Virus record (IMG/VR): IMGVR_UViG_3300002242_000765
Location: 1-20,426 of that record
Strand: one strand, 5' to 3'
DNA from: a virus
Length of the DNA stretch: 20,426 nucleotides
Below, piece after piece: positions 1,649 to 10,625 of this stretch (position 1 is the first letter of the stretch; every line of letters starts with the position of its first letter). A program made the translations under genes and the position numbers. The notes under the pieces are model-generated. The model was not told where the DNA came from. It searched no databases and saw only the letters and a program-made list of their open reading frames with translations.

Positions 1649-2277
1649 TGATTAAAAACGTAATACTTGATTTTGGACATGGTGGTCTCGACGCGAACGG
1701 GAATTATACCACATCACCTAATAAAATGCATACATTTCCTGATGGAGTTGTTGCATATGAGGGAGTACTTAATAGACAAATAGGTGGTCACATTTATACT
1801 TGTCTTCGTTCTCATACTGATTTGAACGTTGTTTGTACGGTAAAGGAAGATGACCCTAGAGACCTATCTTTAGGGTATAGAGTCCGCGTAGCCAACTCAT
1901 TTGACCCAAAAAGTACTATCTTTGTATCCGTGCATTGTAATGCATCTCCCAACCATAATGCGCAGGGAAAGGAGATTTTCACAACAAAGGGATTCACCCA
2001 AAGTGATGTACTAGCGGAACATATAGCCGATGCAGCAGAGTCTGCTCTAGGTCGTTTCAATATGAAACTTCGATATGATTTTTCCGATGGTGACAAAGAC
2101 AAAGAGGCTGACTTCTATGTATTGAGAAAAACCAAATGTCCTGCTGTATTGATTGAGTGTGGCTTTTTTGATTTCAGACCAGAATTTGATAAACTAAGCG
2201 ACCCTCTCTTTCAGGGAGATTACGGTAGCATGGTTTATACTGGAATCATAAACTACATCAATGAAGATAAACAATAA
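1648..2277 (+). CDS. N-acetylmuramoyl-L-alanine amidase (Amidase_3 family endolysin)
   Basis: This 209-residue protein is a zinc-dependent amidase that cuts the bond between N-acetylmuramic acid and the first L-Ala of the peptidoglycan stem. Family landmarks are in order: LDFGHGG with zinc ligand H11, YEGVLNR with E38, VSVHCNAS with H96, and LIECGFFD with the catalytic Glu E170. The length matches a single catalytic domain without a cell-wall-binding domain. No signal peptide is visible, so export would need a holin or a pinholin-type route, and no clear holin is in the window. The start is fixed by the TAATG overlap with the upstream fibre gene. Its place between two fibre genes also leaves open a virion-associated lysin that acts during entry rather than a release endolysin. 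Confidence 0.93.
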   Translation: MIKNVILDFGHGGLDANGNYTTSPNKMHTFPDGVVAYEGVLNRQIGGHIYTCLRSHTDLNVVCTVKEDDPRDLSLGYRVRVANSFDPKSTIFVSVHCNASPNHNAQGKEIFTTKGFTQSDVLAEHIADAAESALGRFNMKLRYDFSDGDKDKEADFYVLRKTKCPAVLIECGFFDFRPEFDKLSDPLFQGDYGSMVYTGIINYINEDKQ

Positions 2278-5200
2278 AGATGCGTATTCGATTGACAACC
2301 AACTAAGTCTGGATGACTTTCTCATTGGTTCAGATGCGGATAATGCAGATAAGACTCGAAATTACCTTTTACGTGGTATCTTTTCAACGTTTAAGACTAG
2401 TCTCAATTTAACTAGTATTGAGTTTACCTTCTCGGCAGGTACTGACCCTGACATTGACCATACAGACCAAGGGTTCTTTACAACAAATTCTAACCAAACT
2501 TCATTTGGGGCGATTACAAGCGTTCTAATCAACAAACTCGACCTTAATGGTATCGACATATCATCTGTAATAGATGTAATCTCTCAGAACACCTCTAGCT
2601 TTACTGTGAGGTTCTCGAAACCATCTTCAACTGGTCAAGTGTTCTATTTTGCAATAAACTCCATTGTTGATTCAGGAACACACTACATTTTAAACGTAAC
2701 ACCGTTTGTAGGGGGTACTGCCCTTGTTGACGAAACAACATATGGTCTGAATTTTGATTTATCAGGTGTGCCATCCATACTTACAGAATCAGACCCAATC
2801 TTTAGTGCATCTCCTGCGGGTTCAATTACAAACACCAACGTTAGTCAATGGAACTCAGCATTCGGTTGGGGTGACCATGCAAGTGTAGGTTATTTGACAT
2901 CTGTTGCAATTGGTGATGTTACTGGATTTACTGACAATAGTAGTAATTGGAATACTGCTTTTGGATGGGGAAATCACGCTGATGTGGGTTATCTCACTTC
3001 ATTTTCAGAATCAGACCCTGTTTATTCATCATCTCCTGCTTCTGGAATAACAAGTATTCTCATAGGTCAATGGAATTTGGCATATTCATGGGGCGACCAC
3101 TCCACAGCAGGTTATATCGTAGGAGAATCAGACCCAGTATTCTTGGCTTCTGTTGCTGCATCAATCACATCAGCACAAGTCAATAATTGGAACGCTGCAT
3201 ATTCATGGGGCGACCACGGTGTTGTGGGTTATTTGACATCTGAATCAGACCCAGTATTTTCAGCTTCTGTTGCTGCGGGAATAATAACTTCGGATATTAC
3301 AAACTGGAACTCAGCATTCGGTTGGGGCGACCACGGTGTTGTGGGTTATGAACTTCAATCAAACAAAGGTATTGCAAACGGATATGCTCCACTTAATGGT
3401 TCTGGGGTTATTGATTCTCAATATCTCCCTGCTTTTGTGGATGATGTACTTGAGTTTGCAAACCTTGCATCATTCCCAGTAACTGGTGAAACTGGAAAAT
3501 TATACATTGCTCTTGATTCCAACTTTACTTATCGTTGGTCAGGTTCTACTTATATTCAAGTAGGTGGTGGTGGAGCAGGTGCTGTTGATTCTGTGTTTGG
3601 TAGAGTAGGTGGTGTTGTGGCTCAAGTAGGAGATTATTCGTCATTTTATGTTCAAAAGACGGGAGATACCATGACAGGTAATCTTACCATAAATTCAACA
3701 TCCTTTCTTCTTGATAGCGGTACTACTTATGGACAAATAGTTCAAAGAAGAGAAGTGTCTGCTGTTGACTATGAATCTGCACTAGCCATTAATGGTGGAA
3801 GCGGTGCAGGTCTATGGACATGGAATGGTGGTGCAGGAACAGCTACATATTTAGAACAAGCATCTACAGGACTTAGATATTATAACGGAAGTTCTTATGT
3901 ATTTGAAGTAGGTACTGATGGGGGTATAGATACTAGTGGTCAGACTTTATCAATGAATTATGGTAATAAAAGTAGAATTGATTTTCTAAACCTTACTAAT
4001 GCTGACCAATCTGTAAGACTAGAATATGAAGCGTCAGATGGCAACCTCATATCTGGTGGGTACGCTTTGAGAATTGTATCTCAAAATGCAATACCACAAT
4101 CATTAGCTTCTCTTGAAGTTGAAGGTAGAATAGGTACTTTGGGTGGTTTTATATCAGCAACAAGAGCAGGTGGAGAATCAGACACATACAGGGCATTATT
4201 TGGTAATTCAGGAACAACTAATAACTTTTTGTTTGGTGGTTCAACAACTGGGTCTGCAACTGCTATGGACACTTTTCTTAGAGTAAGAACAGTAGCAGCA
4301 GGGGATTTATTGTTTCAAGAGGATGGAAACAGCCACACCATTTGGCACTCTGGTAATGATGGTGATGGTTCTGCTCTTGATGCTGATTTATATAAAGGTT
4401 TAGATTTAGGAGCTAGTGGTGCTTGGTGGAATGCTATGACCCGAATCCAATCCAATGGTGTAATGGAAGTTGGTAGATATATTGATTTTCATAGGTCAAA
4501 TACAGGTACTACCGATTACGATGCTAGGTTAGATAATGTAGCTGTGGGGCATCTTAGACTTACCTCAACAAATACTTCTCAAATAATAGAGGCGTATAAT
4601 AGTTCTACTGAATTTGCTCAACTACAGGCTAATGCTTCTGGTGGGGCTTTAATTCTATCAGATGACACTTTAACGAATACTATTTTAAGAGGATATGGTG
4701 ACTCTGAGTTTTATGGTGGTGGGGTAGAGGTTTATAATGGTCAGTTACTTACAGGAAATACTAGTGGTGGTTTTAATGGTCAACTAACAGTCGCTAAGAA
4801 TGATGGTGGTTCAATGGTTTTGACCCATGAAGACGATTATTTGAGATGGAGACGTTCTGGTGGGGGTACTATTCTAGGATGGAGATGGGATAGTTTTGAT
4901 ACTACCGTCATGACATTAACCAGTAGTACTGGATTGACGGTAGTAGGTGATATTTTTGCCAATGGTACTAAATATGAAGGAGATAATAAAGAAATTATTA
5001 GATTTTCAGATGCTTGGTTAAGATTAAACCCTGCTAATGAATTTACTTCAGGTATTTACATGGCATCATCTATTGCTCGAACAGATAACCAATTCCAAGT
5101 AGGTTCGGGTGGTTCGGCTTTTTATGCTAATAGTTCAGGTGACGTAAGAGTATCTGGTGCTTATATGAGAAATAATCACAATACTGGATATCTTGAGGGT

Positions 5201-5755
5201 TCTTATAATAACGTTGGAGCAAACAATAATAATACCAATCCCATTTATGTAATTGGTTCATCTTATGTACCTACTACTACTGCTCTAAGTAATATGTATG
5301 GTATTGGGTATAGTAATGGCTCTGCAACGTTTTTGAATTCAACTGACTTGGGTACTAATCCTGCGGGTTGGGGAATGTATGTGGCAGCAGATGGTAACGC
5401 TCGTATTTTCCTTAATGCAACTAATGGACACATTTATGCAGGGGGTAACATGTATGCTGATAACTTTATTCTATCATCCGATATTACAAAGAAAACCAAC
5501 ATAGAGAATATTGAAGAGACTTTCGATGTTCGTTGGAGAAGCTTTGAAATGAAGAAGGAGTTGGGCGAAATCAGATACGGTGTTATTGCTCAAGAGTTGC
5601 AAGAAACTCACCCACAGTTTGTACATGACGATGGTACAGGGAATCTATCTGTGCGATACATTGACTTATTGGTAGCTAAAATGGCTGAGAAGGACAAGCA
5701 GATTGATAACCTTGAGGAACGAATCGAAAGATTAGAAAAAGCAATACTAGGATAA
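2261..5755 (+). CDS. Tail fibre with WGDH-type repeats and C-terminal S74 intramolecular chaperone
   Basis: This 1164-residue receptor-binding fibre candidate starts inside the amidase gene (17-base overlap); no other in-frame Met lies near, so ATG 2261 is chosen. The N-terminus (LDDFLIGSDADNADKTRNYL) resembles the particle-attachment end of flavobacterial phage fibres. Residues about 176-366 hold five repeats with the pattern ESDPVF...NWN.A..WGDH..GYL. Then come motifs common in phage fibres: VFGRVGGVVAQVGDY, KTGDTMTGNL and IWHSGNDGDGSALDADL. The C-terminus is a Peptidase_S74 chaperone: LSSDITKKTNI gives the Ser-Lys dyad S1073/K1078, followed by RYGVIAQELQE and a terminal coiled coil (about 1138-1164). 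In this family the chaperone trimerises the fibre and then cuts itself off just before the Ser. The stop overlaps the next start (TAATG). Confidence 0.9.
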   Translation: MKINNKDAYSIDNQLSLDDFLIGSDADNADKTRNYLLRGIFSTFKTSLNLTSIEFTFSAGTDPDIDHTDQGFFTTNSNQTSFGAITSVLINKLDLNGIDISSVIDVISQNTSSFTVRFSKPSSTGQVFYFAINSIVDSGTHYILNVTPFVGGTALVDETTYGLNFDLSGVPSILTESDPIFSASPAGSITNTNVSQWNSAFGWGDHASVGYLTSVAIGDVTGFTDNSSNWNTAFGWGNHADVGYLTSFSESDPVYSSSPASGITSILIGQWNLAYSWGDHSTAGYIVGESDPVFLASVAASITSAQVNNWNAAYSWGDHGVVGYLTSESDPVFSASVAAGIITSDITNWNSAFGWGDHGVVGYELQSNKGIANGYAPLNGSGVIDSQYLPAFVDDVLEFANLASFPVTGETGKLYIALDSNFTYRWSGSTYIQVGGGGAGAVDSVFGRVGGVVAQVGDYSSFYVQKTGDTMTGNLTINSTSFLLDSGTTYGQIVQRREVSAVDYESALAINGGSGAGLWTWNGGAGTATYLEQASTGLRYYNGSSYVFEVGTDGGIDTSGQTLSMNYGNKSRIDFLNLTNADQSVRLEYEASDGNLISGGYALRIVSQNAIPQSLASLEVEGRIGTLGGFISATRAGGESDTYRALFGNSGTTNNFLFGGSTTGSATAMDTFLRVRTVAAGDLLFQEDGNSHTIWHSGNDGDGSALDADLYKGLDLGASGAWWNAMTRIQSNGVMEVGRYIDFHRSNTGTTDYDARLDNVAVGHLRLTSTNTSQIIEAYNSSTEFAQLQANASGGALILSDDTLTNTILRGYGDSEFYGGGVEVYNGQLLTGNTSGGFNGQLTVAKNDGGSMVLTHEDDYLRWRRSGGGTILGWRWDSFDTTVMTLTSSTGLTVVGDIFANGTKYEGDNKEIIRFSDAWLRLNPANEFTSGIYMASSIARTDNQFQVGSGGSAFYANSSGDVRVSGAYMRNNHNTGYLEGSYNNVGANNNNTNPIYVIGSSYVPTTTALSNMYGIGYSNGSATFLNSTDLGTNPAGWGMYVAADGNARIFLNATNGHIYAGGNMYADNFILSSDITKKTNIENIEETFDVRWRSFEMKKELGEIRYGVIAQELQETHPQFVHDDGTGNLSVRYIDLLVAKMAEKDKQIDNLEERIERLEKAILG
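2786..3358 (+). repeat. Five coding repeats in the tail fibre (about 117 bases each)
   Basis: The seed GAATCAGACCC recurs at 2786, 3008, 3125 and 3242. The last three are spaced exactly 117 bases (39 codons) apart. Between 2786 and 3008 lies a degenerate fifth unit of about 35 codons that keeps NWNTAFGWGNH but lost the ESDP start. DNA identity is patchy: units 1 and 5 share TCAGCATTCGGTTGGGG, units 3 and 4 share GCATATTCATGGGGCGACCA, and units 4 and 5 share GGGGCGACCACGGTGTTGTG. This mosaic suggests recombination between units. It is protein-coding and not a CRISPR array. Confidence 0.9.
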
Positions 5756-7241: not shown

Positions 7242-7454
7242 ATGATACGTAAGATTTCAATAGGCGTTGACTACAAGAACGCCATGCATTATACTGTCGG
7301 ACAACCGTTCGGACGGTTAACAGTAAAAGAGATTAAGTCTGAGGATGATGGTTATCATCTTTATGTTACTGATGAATACGGTGACTTCGTCGAATGGAAG
7401 TACTGGAACAATGCTGTACCAGTTCATGTTGAATTCGACATTGAAGCATTTTAA
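7242..7454 (+). CDS. Conserved-looking 70-residue protein, function unknown
   Basis: This compact protein begins MIRKISIGVDYKNAMHYTVG, followed by a beta-rich middle (RLTVKEIKS, YHLYVTDEYGDFVEWKYW) and a hydrophobic acidic end (VPVHVEFDIEAF). No membrane segment or cysteine is present. It is the first gene after the 7214 promoter and overlaps the co-chaperonin-like gene by TAATG, so the two are probably made together. The opening resembles small proteins I associate with Bacteroidota phages, but I cannot name a family or activity. The coding call is supported by the promoter, the start/stop coupling and the neat fit between neighbours. Confidence 0.72.
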   Translation: MIRKISIGVDYKNAMHYTVGQPFGRLTVKEIKSEDDGYHLYVTDEYGDFVEWKYWNNAVPVHVEFDIEAF

Positions 7455-7999
7455 TGAGAAGTCCTCATAGCTTCATAGTGACCCCAAAGAATAAGAGGTA
7501 CAAGACCAAGACCATTGCAGGAATTGAGATTGATACCTCTACTTCTATTGAGAATGCCAAGGATGTATCCAAGAAAGCCATTGTTGTGGCTCTACCTCTT
7601 GTGTACAATGGTGAACGTAAGGTCGGTGACGAGGTCTTGATTCACCACAATATCTTTCGTGATTATTATAATCAGAAAGGTAAACTTAAGCATTCGAGAG
7701 CTTTCCTATATGATGACAAATTTACCGCAATTCCCGAAGAGGTGTTCCTCTACAAGAAAGACGGTGAGTGGATTCCACACATGGATTTCTGCTTTGTGAA
7801 ACCTATATTCGATGACCAGTTCTCCGAATTATATCAAGGACAGCTACAGCACACAGGTACTATCTTTCTTTCAAACGAACATCCCATTGGTGAAGATATC
7901 GGCTTCACTCCTGAATCGGAGTATGAAGTTGAGGTCGACGGTGATGTGTATTATCGAATGAAGGATAAAGATATTTGCCTGTATGAAAGGTTTAAGTAG
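7454..7999 (+). CDS. GroES-like co-chaperonin candidate with an internal insertion
   Basis: This 181-residue protein sits directly before the terminase gene, overlapping it by 17 bases. Two separated parts resemble GroES. Residues about 6-66 read as its front half: a beta start, KTKTIAGIEI (17-26) in the place of the mobile loop with a hydrophobic I-E-I that could act like the GroEL-binding tripeptide, then AIVVALPLV and KVGDEVLIHHNIF, matching the strand that ends GDxV. Residues about 155-178 (SEYEVEVDGDVYYRMKDKDI) closely follow the GroES ending, where a DG turn and a DI near the end are typical. About 85 residues lie between, more than in host GroES (about 95-97 aa in all). The expected role is to cap host GroEL to fold capsid protein, as phage T4 gp31 does. 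The call is by motif only and needs structure comparison. Confidence 0.55.
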   Translation: MRSPHSFIVTPKNKRYKTKTIAGIEIDTSTSIENAKDVSKKAIVVALPLVYNGERKVGDEVLIHHNIFRDYYNQKGKLKHSRAFLYDDKFTAIPEEVFLYKKDGEWIPHMDFCFVKPIFDDQFSELYQGQLQHTGTIFLSNEHPIGEDIGFTPESEYEVEVDGDVYYRMKDKDICLYERFK

Positions 8000-10625
8000 T
8001 GACATAGAACTTGCCGTAAAGACTATCCTTGAGGGATTGGCTTATGACATCAACATCGACGTTGTAGAAGATGATAAGATGAGACAGGCTATGGACGCTA
8101 AAGTCTCATCTTTTAAATATGCAAAAGAAGTACTTGACAAGTGGCAAAATAGCCCCAACGCTCCCAATACTGATACGTTAAAAGCTTATGTAGAGCAATT
8201 GGTAATTGCAGGTGATGATTCCATAATGGAACTCCGTGATGCCTTGAGAAAGGACATCGATTATGAGAAATTGGAAGCAACCAAAGTAGCCAATGCTGTT
8301 AAAGCCAAATCCACGATATTACAATATATTCAACAACTTGACTCCAATCTTATGGAGTTGCGTCTTCAGTTAGATGCTGATAAGTTCCAACTAGGAGAAA
8401 GAGAGTTCAAACTTGGATTCCCTGAGAGATTTGCTCGTGGGGATTTCTACGCTCCTGATAACTACTATCCAGAGTGGTACAATGCTGATGAAGACGCTGT
8501 GATGATTGACCCAAATGGAACTAAAGGTGATGTTGTCAATGTTGGTGGATTGAACATTCAGCTACCTAAAAAGCCTAAGAAATCAGAGATTCTGTTCTCT
8601 GACCTTCCCAAGAAAGAACAATACTGGCGAAGACAAGAAATGCCCAAAGGTTTGAACCCAGAAAGTGAAGAAGCGTTTGCTGAGTACATTCTGGAAGAGT
8701 TCAGACGTAGACGAGAGGGTATTTGGTTCATGAACAATGGAAAAGCTGAATACCTTACTGGTAATATGTACTTTGCTCTACAATGGGGAAAGATGCAGGA
8801 TAAAGGTGGTATTTATATGGATTTTAGATATGCTCAACGCGATATGTTCTATTTCGCTGAAGCTTGTCTTTTAGACCCTCGTTGTCTGGGTGAGATATTC
8901 GTAAAATCAAGACGTACTGGTTTCACCTACGTGAGTTTAGCCATCATGCTCAACGATGCCACCTCACAGCAAAATGCCGTGTATGGTCTGACATCACAGA
9001 ACGACGACGATGCGAAACGTACATTTAAGAAGTTTGCGTACATGTTCCGAAACTTACCTTTCTTCTTTAGACCAGTTGTTAAGGGAGCGGTGGACTCAGA
9101 GAAGATATTAGAGTTTGGTCTTCCTTCGGACAAGTCCAAAGCAGCAAAGCTCTCTCGTAAGAACAAAAGCAAGGATTACCTCAACACCAAAATGGATTAT
9201 GAAGCAACTAAAGATGGTGCTTATGATGGTCAATGGTTGAAGATATATCTTGGTGATGAAGCATCAAAATGGAAGAAACCTGCCAATTATCTAAACCATT
9301 GGGGTAGGGTATCACCAACAATGGACGAAGGTGGTGAAATCGTAGGTAAAGCCCTTATTGGTTCAACTGTGAACCCAATGAAACAAGGTGGTGAGGAATT
9401 CAAGAAATTGGTACTACAATCCAAATTGGAAGGTAGAGATGATGTCACACAACGTACTGTGTCGGGTCTATATGTCTATTTCCTACCCGCTCACAAGAAC
9501 ATGACAAAGTTCACGGACAAGTATGGTGTATGTCATGAATCCAAACCAGAGAAACCTACATTTAATGTAAATGGTAAGTTAATCAAAACAGGTTCTATTG
9601 ATTTCTTGGAAGCAAGACGTAAAGCAAAGCGTAAGAAGTCGGAGATTTCATATAATGAGGAATTACGAGCCTTTCCAATGAGATTGGCAGAAGCGTTACG
9701 TGATGACGCTAAGAAGTCCGTATTCTCAATCGAGAAGATTAATGAACAAATAGAATATCTTGATAACGTAGCCAACGTCCCAATGCATGTTACAACTGGT
9801 AACTTCATGTGGGAAAATGGTGTGAAGGACACTAAAGTTGTTTGGTATCCAGACCCTAATGGTAGATTCAAGATTACATGGTTGCCGAATAAAGGCATGA
9901 GAAACAATGTTCGAACAATCAGAGGTCAAAAAGAACCAATGAATGGACATTTTGGTTGTTTTGGTTGTGACTCTTATGACATTTCGGGTACTGTATCTGG
10001 AAAAGGCTCTAAGGGTTCTTTACATGGGGTTACTGGACTCACAATGGAGAACGCACCTTCAAATACATTCTTCCTTGAATACATCAATCGTACAGGACTT
10101 GCAGAGCAATTCTATGAAGATGTATTGATGGCTTGTGTATTTTATGGAATGCCCATTCTTGTGGAAAACAACAAACCTCGTATACTTTATCACTTTAAGA
10201 ACCGTGGATATCGTAAGTTCTGTTTGAACAGACCAGACAAAGCAGCAAACAGATTATCCAAGTCAGAGAAGGAGCTTGGGGGTATTCCGTCAGCTTCAGC
10301 AGACGTTATTACAACCCATGCCTCGTTCATTGAGAATTTTATTGTTAACTTTGTAGGCGTGTACGATGAGGAAGACGAAACTCAAAGGGTACGAGAGTAC
10401 GCTTCAATAGGGAACTTCTATTTCATGGAAACACTTCAGGATTGGTTGTCATTTGACATTACAAACAGGGAGAAACACGATGCCTCGATTAGTTCAGGAT
10501 ACGCCCTAATGGGTTTGAACAGAGCGCAATTGACCCCTACCCCAGAAGTTAAGAAGATAAACATGGGCTTCGGAACGTACCAACAAAAAGGCATGCATAG
10601 CGAATTAAACACAAAAGATGACTAA
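7983..10625 (+). CDS. terL: Terminase large subunit (packaging ATPase and nuclease)
   Basis: This 880-residue motor pumps DNA into the procapsid through the portal and cuts it. The ATPase shows a Walker A of the deviant type, KSRRTGFTY (308-316), in which Lys comes first and the usual GK lysine is Phe, much like the KSARVGYS form of phage lambda; Walker B is KIYLGDEA with D425/E426. The C-terminal RNase H-like nuclease has candidate metal ligands D663 (GCDSYDI), E728 (ILVENN) and D774 (SADVI). Before Walker A are about 300 residues, longer than in many phages but in line with crAss-like terminases; the stretch FMNNGKAEYLTGNMYFALQW is typical of that group. The start overlaps the upstream gene by 17 bases and the end overlaps portal by 8. 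No small terminase is recognised in the window. Confidence 0.93.
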   Translation: MKGLSSDIELAVKTILEGLAYDINIDVVEDDKMRQAMDAKVSSFKYAKEVLDKWQNSPNAPNTDTLKAYVEQLVIAGDDSIMELRDALRKDIDYEKLEATKVANAVKAKSTILQYIQQLDSNLMELRLQLDADKFQLGEREFKLGFPERFARGDFYAPDNYYPEWYNADEDAVMIDPNGTKGDVVNVGGLNIQLPKKPKKSEILFSDLPKKEQYWRRQEMPKGLNPESEEAFAEYILEEFRRRREGIWFMNNGKAEYLTGNMYFALQWGKMQDKGGIYMDFRYAQRDMFYFAEACLLDPRCLGEIFVKSRRTGFTYVSLAIMLNDATSQQNAVYGLTSQNDDDAKRTFKKFAYMFRNLPFFFRPVVKGAVDSEKILEFGLPSDKSKAAKLSRKNKSKDYLNTKMDYEATKDGAYDGQWLKIYLGDEASKWKKPANYLNHWGRVSPTMDEGGEIVGKALIGSTVNPMKQGGEEFKKLVLQSKLEGRDDVTQRTVSGLYVYFLPAHKNMTKFTDKYGVCHESKPEKPTFNVNGKLIKTGSIDFLEARRKAKRKKSEISYNEELRAFPMRLAEALRDDAKKSVFSIEKINEQIEYLDNVANVPMHVTTGNFMWENGVKDTKVVWYPDPNGRFKITWLPNKGMRNNVRTIRGQKEPMNGHFGCFGCDSYDISGTVSGKGSKGSLHGVTGLTMENAPSNTFFLEYINRTGLAEQFYEDVLMACVFYGMPILVENNKPRILYHFKNRGYRKFCLNRPDKAANRLSKSEKELGGIPSASADVITTHASFIENFIVNFVGVYDEEDETQRVREYASIGNFYFMETLQDWLSFDITNREKHDASISSGYALMGLNRAQLTPTPEVKKINMGFGTYQQKGMHSELNTKDD

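Follow-up and report, generated by a model that had tools for sequence, protein, structure and literature searches.

A putative tandem Cpn10 co-chaperonin encoded directly before the terminase gene in a widespread group of phages

The co-chaperonin gene and its neighbours

The window analysed in this work, that is, the whole stretch of 20,426 nucleotides taken from a 27-kb viral record (IMGVR_UViG_3300002242_000765), includes an open reading frame (ORF) of 181 amino acids placed between a small conserved gene and terL, the gene of the large terminase subunit (Table 1). The ORF contains the segments KTKTIAGIEI, KVGDEVLIHHN and EVEVDGDVYYRMKDKDI, from which a preliminary description of this DNA recognised a phage-encoded GroES-like co-chaperonin directly before the terminase; this assignment is now backed by PHROG, by the predicted fold and by synteny. 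The 3' end of the ORF and the 5' end of the terL ORF share 17 bases, and a TerL match was found at most 1.2 kb downstream of the co-chaperonin gene in 108 of the 110 related loci with room for it. Of the 106 loci with room for the 70-aa gene, 105 have it directly upstream of the co-chaperonin gene. Its stop codon overlaps the start of the co-chaperonin gene by 1 base in 77 of 110 loci; the window shows this overlap. No significant match for the product of this upstream gene was obtained in Pfam or PHROG.

Table 1. Coordinates of the features described at the co-chaperonin locus of the window
Feature	Position	Strand	Remarks
Small conserved gene, 70 aa, MIRKISIG..AMHY..GQ..WK..E	7242..7454	+	upstream neighbour of the co-chaperonin gene
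Predicted tandem Cpn10 (double GroES) co-chaperonin gene	7454..7999	+	ATG start, 181 aa plus stop
Predicted N-terminal Cpn10-like barrel D1, about residues 1-106	7454..7771	+	VIA-align; profile versus shuffles
D1 mobile-loop region, about residues 12-40 (KTKTIAGIEIDTSTS)	7487..7573	+	putative GroEL contact
Predicted C-terminal Cpn10 barrel D2, about residues 107-181 (GFTPESEYEVEVDGDVYYRMKDKDI)	7772..7996	+	hhalign; Pfam Cpn10
D2 loop, residues 119-133	7808..7852	+	degenerate in the clade of the window; putative role
Terminase large subunit, next gene downstream	7983..10625	+	PHROG 6681, E 1.3e-160

In the clade of the window, as well as in Elemovirus and in Cellulophaga phage phi38:1, TerL is extended by about 160 aa at its N-terminus; in the window this part comprises residues 1-166 (positions 7983-8480). 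In most other relatives the TerL match is shorter and begins 0.3-0.5 kb further on, and in ctfjg026 a separate ORF of 94 aa lies between the co-chaperonin gene and the shorter TerL match. The extension is possibly a fused small-terminase-like part; by BLASTP, no similarity to it was detected in the pre-terL ORF of about 95 aa of other clades (one tested). Further upstream in the window, positions 2261-5755 encode a large tail-fibre-like protein with SESDPVF...SWGDH repeats and, as judged by eye, an endosialidase-chaperone-like C-terminus; its positional counterpart in phi38:1 is annotated as 'chaperone of endosialidase'.

A widely conserved GroES-like family

PHROG 13932, named 'co-chaperonin GroES', matches residues 1-174 of the window protein with an E value of 1.3e-18. 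Pfam Cpn10 aligns with residues 145-175 only and scores 14.4 bits, under its gathering cut-off of 21.1; the phi38:1 member of the family reaches 28.2 bits, above the gathering score. Relatives occupy at least 582 places in IMG/VR viral contigs, and 26 loci with the gene were found in bacterial and archaeal genome bins, many of which are probably phage contigs binned with their hosts. We conclude that the window ORF encodes a real, widely conserved co-chaperonin of the GroES/Cpn10 type. A chance resemblance to GroES was also considered; it is ruled out by the PHROG E value, by the hundreds of relatives and by the shuffle control of the N-terminal half given below.

The nearest relative found is encoded on a 78.9-kb contig from a Lacinutrix bin (67% identity to the window protein), and that of Maribacter phage Panino shows 63% identity; the values are 40% for ctfjg026, 32% for the Flavobacterium phages of the genus Elemovirus, and 28-29% for the Cellulophaga phages phi38:1 and Calle. 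The nearest named or classified relatives are Panino, Elemovirus (for which no family is given), Pervagoviridae and Pachyviridae, none of them placed under Crassvirales, so that the term crAss-like, which had been given to this structural block, is a loose label. Many phages of the group probably infect Flavobacteria. Among solved structures, phmmer returned no match for the window protein, and the Cpn10 matches of the family profile were weak and non-significant.

A conserved C-terminal tail with the motif YNPSW occurs, among the members listed, in L015, L044, L062, L074, L080 and L084, and is missing from the window protein. In one case (L097, CP070801.1) the cassette is found within a record titled as a 1.05-Mb chromosome from an Aenigmatarchaeota bin, for which misassembly or contamination seems more likely than an archaeal host.

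Two predicted barrels in one chain

AlphaFold was used to model the window protein from an alignment of 69 rows (pLDDT 82.8, pTM 0.76) and, in addition, L033, a distant family member (pLDDT 90.4); the two models are not fully independent, given that their alignments have most rows in common. For both, the best full-length match was 7ekq_R, a chain from Chlamydomonas named 'Cpn20 co-chaperonin subunit', with a VIA-align Z of 10.0 over 154 residues at 4.2 A for the window model (Foldseek E 5e-5) and of 10.1 over 158 residues for L033. Ranks 2-16 were occupied exclusively by single Cpn10s, gp31 of phage T4 among them, and unrelated folds began at Z <=5.7 for the window model and at Z <=4.8 for L033. 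When the halves were compared separately, D1 of the window model (residues 1-102) matched GroES (8wuc_a, Z 7.6, 81 aligned residues, 3.1 A) and T4 gp31 (1g31, Z 6.7), D2 of the same model (residues 106-180) matched the single Cpn10 1p3h (Z 7.4), and D2 of the L033 model (residues 107-187) matched single Cpn10s with Z up to 9.5. D1 and D2 alike resemble the GroES-type beta barrel of Cpn10, with scores above those of unrelated folds, and follow each other head to tail in one polypeptide. The nearest predicted viral structures in BFVD, e.g. the 'Chaperonin cpn10' of phi18:3 (200 aa), align along the whole chain. According to these models, the window protein is predicted to consist of two Cpn10 barrels arranged head to tail.

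The match to Cpn10 profiles was clear for D2 and weak for D1. By hhalign, D2 reached 95% against host GroES and 97.2% (E 3.6e-11) against host plus phage Cpn10; D1 alone gave just 22% against Cpn10, yet its score against the profile (23.6) was above all of the column shuffles (60/60, the best of them with 16.1), and the aligned part covers the mobile loop and the VGD strand. In phi18:3 and phi19:3, the profile of the phage single Cpn10s recognises two separate stretches within one ORF, an N-terminal one that is weak (E 0.009) and a C-terminal one (E 5e-6). A direct hhalign comparison of D1 with D2 detected no similarity (2.9% and 4.2% in two runs), so the evidence for an internal repeat is structural and comes also from the relation of each half to Cpn10. 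Z values of 7-8 are by themselves modest, and the tandem architecture draws its weight from the top ranks being all Cpn10, from the fact that both models agree, and from the sequence evidence.

The preliminary description had proposed a single gp31-like GroES barrel split by about 85 extra residues, an insertion that could enlarge the folding chamber or add a substrate lid. It is true that the two strongest sequence landmarks are far apart and that recognition by Pfam is limited to a C-terminal stretch; however, in the models these segments belong to different barrels, KTKTIAGIEI being the mobile loop and KVGDEVLIHHN a mid-barrel strand of barrel 1, and the terminal segment the C-terminal strand region of barrel 2. 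What had been taken for extra residues comprises the last part of barrel 1 and the first part of barrel 2. Moreover, D1 (1-102) and D2 (106-187) each match Cpn10 structurally, and the whole chain matches the tandem Cpn20. Given the two models and the separate matches of each half, a single barrel with an insertion can largely be rejected, and we consider it extremely improbable; the protein is better described as a predicted tandem Cpn10, similar to Cpn20. Another viral protein in BFVD, A0A516L046 (304 aa), aligns to the tandem model with a TM of 0.69 by query length, and may include a third barrel or some other additional domain.

The mobile loops

The mobile loop of D1 was compared with that of E. 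coli GroES (TKSAGGIVLTGSA). The motif reads KTIAGIEI in the window protein and TESGLEL in phi18:3, and the family consensus is K.IGG..F(I/V). Judged from its sequence, D1 is strongly diverged, yet it has kept a recognisable GroES-like mobile-loop motif. In D2, residues 122-127 of the loop have a pLDDT under 50 in the window model.

These observations bear on the idea that the barrels have been repurposed and would work as a head-assembly or packaging factor, for instance a scaffold of the terminase or the portal, with no chaperonin action. A degenerate D2 loop and the highly conserved position before terL would suit such a role, as would the weak match of the Cpn10-like protein gp15 of crAss001 to PHROG 931 'head morphogenesis'. 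Nonetheless, the D1 motif is kept family-wide and in phi18:3, the tandem gene co-occurs with GroEL, and in phi18:3 it is the portal that is marked as found by MS/MS, the GroES gene being annotated by similarity only. We regard a repurposed packaging factor as rather improbable.

GroEL and a single Cpn10 in the relatives

A Cpn60 search revealed a GroEL in 12 of the 13 larger records that carry the tandem gene, the lone exception (L004) having just 1.75 kb upstream of this gene; among 48 further records, most of them short, GroEL was found in 11. Among the 22 records for which the upstream span was computed, the upstream part of those devoid of GroEL is shorter than 8 kb, except in L003 (14.1 kb). 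All of the tested records with both GroEL and the tandem gene (17/17) also carry a separate single Cpn10 of about 83-91 aa, at a distance of up to 549 bp from GroEL in 16 of them and of 3.3 kb in the remaining one. Panino and the 78.9-kb contig from the Lacinutrix bin each encode GroEL, single Cpn10 and the tandem protein, in the latter case all on one contig. Among the named phage genomes, which are a small and related sample, the pairing of tandem and single Cpn10 is stricter than that of either with GroEL: single plus tandem Cpn10 are present in phi18:3 and phi19:3 of the Pachyviridae, where GroEL was not found, and in Gundel_1 none of the three was found.

Neither GroEL nor single Cpn10 was detected in the 27-kb record of the window itself, which includes 7.4 kb upstream of the tandem gene and ends short of the place where GroEL is expected. 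Since the record has neither gene, the three-part system of this phage is inferred from its relatives, and the window phage itself would presumably encode both.

The preliminary description held that the phage retunes host GroEL. In the strictest form of this idea, the protein would be a gp31-like replacement lid for host GroEL only, with host GroES displaced and phage GroEL not involved. Such an action is possible in view of the two Pachyviridae phages, and the record of the window points in the same direction; but where sufficient sequence is available, nearly all relatives have a GroEL and a single Cpn10 of their own, among them the nearest near-complete ones, Panino and the Lacinutrix-bin contig, where GroEL is located about 16 kb and about 14 kb upstream of the tandem gene, respectively, beyond the span covered by the window. 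A lid that serves host GroEL only is thus unlikely, and the retuning of host GroEL is probably an incomplete account of the tandem protein.

In an alignment with the E. coli and host proteins, the phage GroELs show 32-40% identity to E. coli GroEL. The ATPase positions T30, G32, K51, D52, D87, T89, D398 and D495 are invariant across the phage GroELs. Positions 234, 259, 263 and 264, which belong to the binding groove for GroES and substrate, are altered in most sequences, L234 being mostly E, Q or D; N265 is kept, and F204 nearly always. The ring-ring positions 452, 461, 463 and 464 are not conserved. These residues would fit a phage GroEL that is active as an ATPase, that contacts its lid differently and whose ring pairing is perhaps weaker. 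The methylated phage GroEL of phi38:1 (gp054) has been listed in virocells and in free virions in a proteomic study of 2026 (PMC13288928).

Proposed function and comparison with known systems

The reading that we favour, with a probability of about 0.68, is that the tandem Cpn10 acts as a lid subunit of a group I chaperonin, whose chamber it would close over late phage proteins; the GroEL encoded by the phage itself would be the likeliest partner, and the separate single-barrel Cpn10 would probably contribute to the same lid. Contact with the chamber would be established through the mobile loop or loops, and the clients may be capsid, portal or terminase proteins, which are candidates by gene position alone. 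Several observations count against this reading, namely the sub-threshold match of Pfam Cpn10, the 22% of D1 by hhalign, the degenerate D2 loop in the clade of the window, the presence of both co-chaperonins without GroEL in phi18:3 and phi19:3, and the 27-kb record without GroEL or single Cpn10.

By analogy, the arrangement is best read as a larger phage-encoded three-part chaperonin that would resemble the chloroplast Cpn60/Cpn10/Cpn20. The Cpn20 proteins of chloroplasts and apicoplasts (Chlamydomonas CPN20 and CPN23, Arabidopsis Cpn20) likewise have two Cpn10 barrels per chain, head to tail, and in chloroplasts a single-barrel Cpn10 is present alongside, as in the phage relatives. It has been reviewed that lids with seven GroES-like domains are formed jointly by CrCPN20/23 and the single Cpn10 (PMC5780408); the chloroplast entry 7ekq includes one Cpn11, two Cpn20 and one Cpn23 chains, i.e. 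seven barrels. The occurrence of one tandem and one single Cpn10 per phage suggests a similar seven-barrel solution, possibly three tandem chains plus one single chain. In contrast to Cpn20, the phage gene sits before terL and its first barrel is highly diverged, and identity over the structural alignments is 11-14%. A putative independent duplication is more plausible than common descent with plastid Cpn20; the sequences are too diverged for a reliable tree. A fuller proposal, in which an altered-groove GroEL and a mixed seven-barrel lid form a dedicated three-part chaperonin, convergent with that of the chloroplast and specialised for late virion proteins, is tentative, and we give it less than even odds.

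T4 gp31 is likewise a phage-encoded lid of Cpn10 fold for late protein folding, and its structure matches each of the phage barrels with Z 6.1-7.5. It has a single barrel, forms homoheptamers and serves host GroEL (PMC6318259); the 181-aa protein, with two predicted barrels, falls outside a family with one Cpn10 barrel per chain, and the phages described here usually have a GroEL of their own plus a second co-chaperonin. The chaperonin gp146 of Pseudomonas phage EL is of the GroEL type and phage-encoded, as in the present relatives, which differ in having two co-chaperonins besides GroEL. The EL protein was reported not to interact with E. coli GroES, and an encapsulation-free action was proposed (PMC7185714).

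Chaperonins were reported in just 7 of 2,429 reference viral genomes, and GroEL homologues of group 2 phages (phi38:1 included) in 36 environmental genomes in 2017 (PMC5332604); for Panino, homologues of GroEL and GroES have been noted (PMC11590407), and tandem Cpn10 lids have been reviewed as chloroplast-only (PMC5780408). The family name was already in the databases: PHROG 13932 and the RefSeq entries 'co-chaperonin GroES' of Elemovirus, Panino and phi38:1 represent the same protein family as the window protein, and RefSeq gives this name to both Elemovirus genes, tandem and single. These entries provide the name only and mention neither a tandem architecture nor the co-occurrence with a single Cpn10. 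No description of a phage tandem Cpn10 or of the three-part arrangement was found in the literature consulted, in which virioplankton chaperonins were incompletely covered.

The tandem lids of chloroplasts posed a symmetry problem, given that an even number of barrels has to fit a chamber of seven-fold symmetry. If the phages do represent another case, apparently of independent origin and likewise accompanied by a single-barrel partner, they would offer a natural test of the reasons for which tandem lids evolve and of whether this problem is solved by mixed lids. It also suggests that a widespread phage group has a complete folding machine of its own, not the host's.

In Crassvirales, a profile search of crAss001 and phi14:2 detected no tandem protein; phi14:2 carries a GroEL. 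The 136-aa gp15 of crAss001 (L197 2412-2822), annotated as 'putative 10kDa chaperonin', is encoded four genes before terL, and phi14:2 has a GroES-like gene of 129 aa (L198 22264-22653) a short distance upstream of terL, with few genes in between. Among the podoviruses of Bacteroidetes, the location of a co-chaperonin gene in the vicinity of terL may therefore be ancient.
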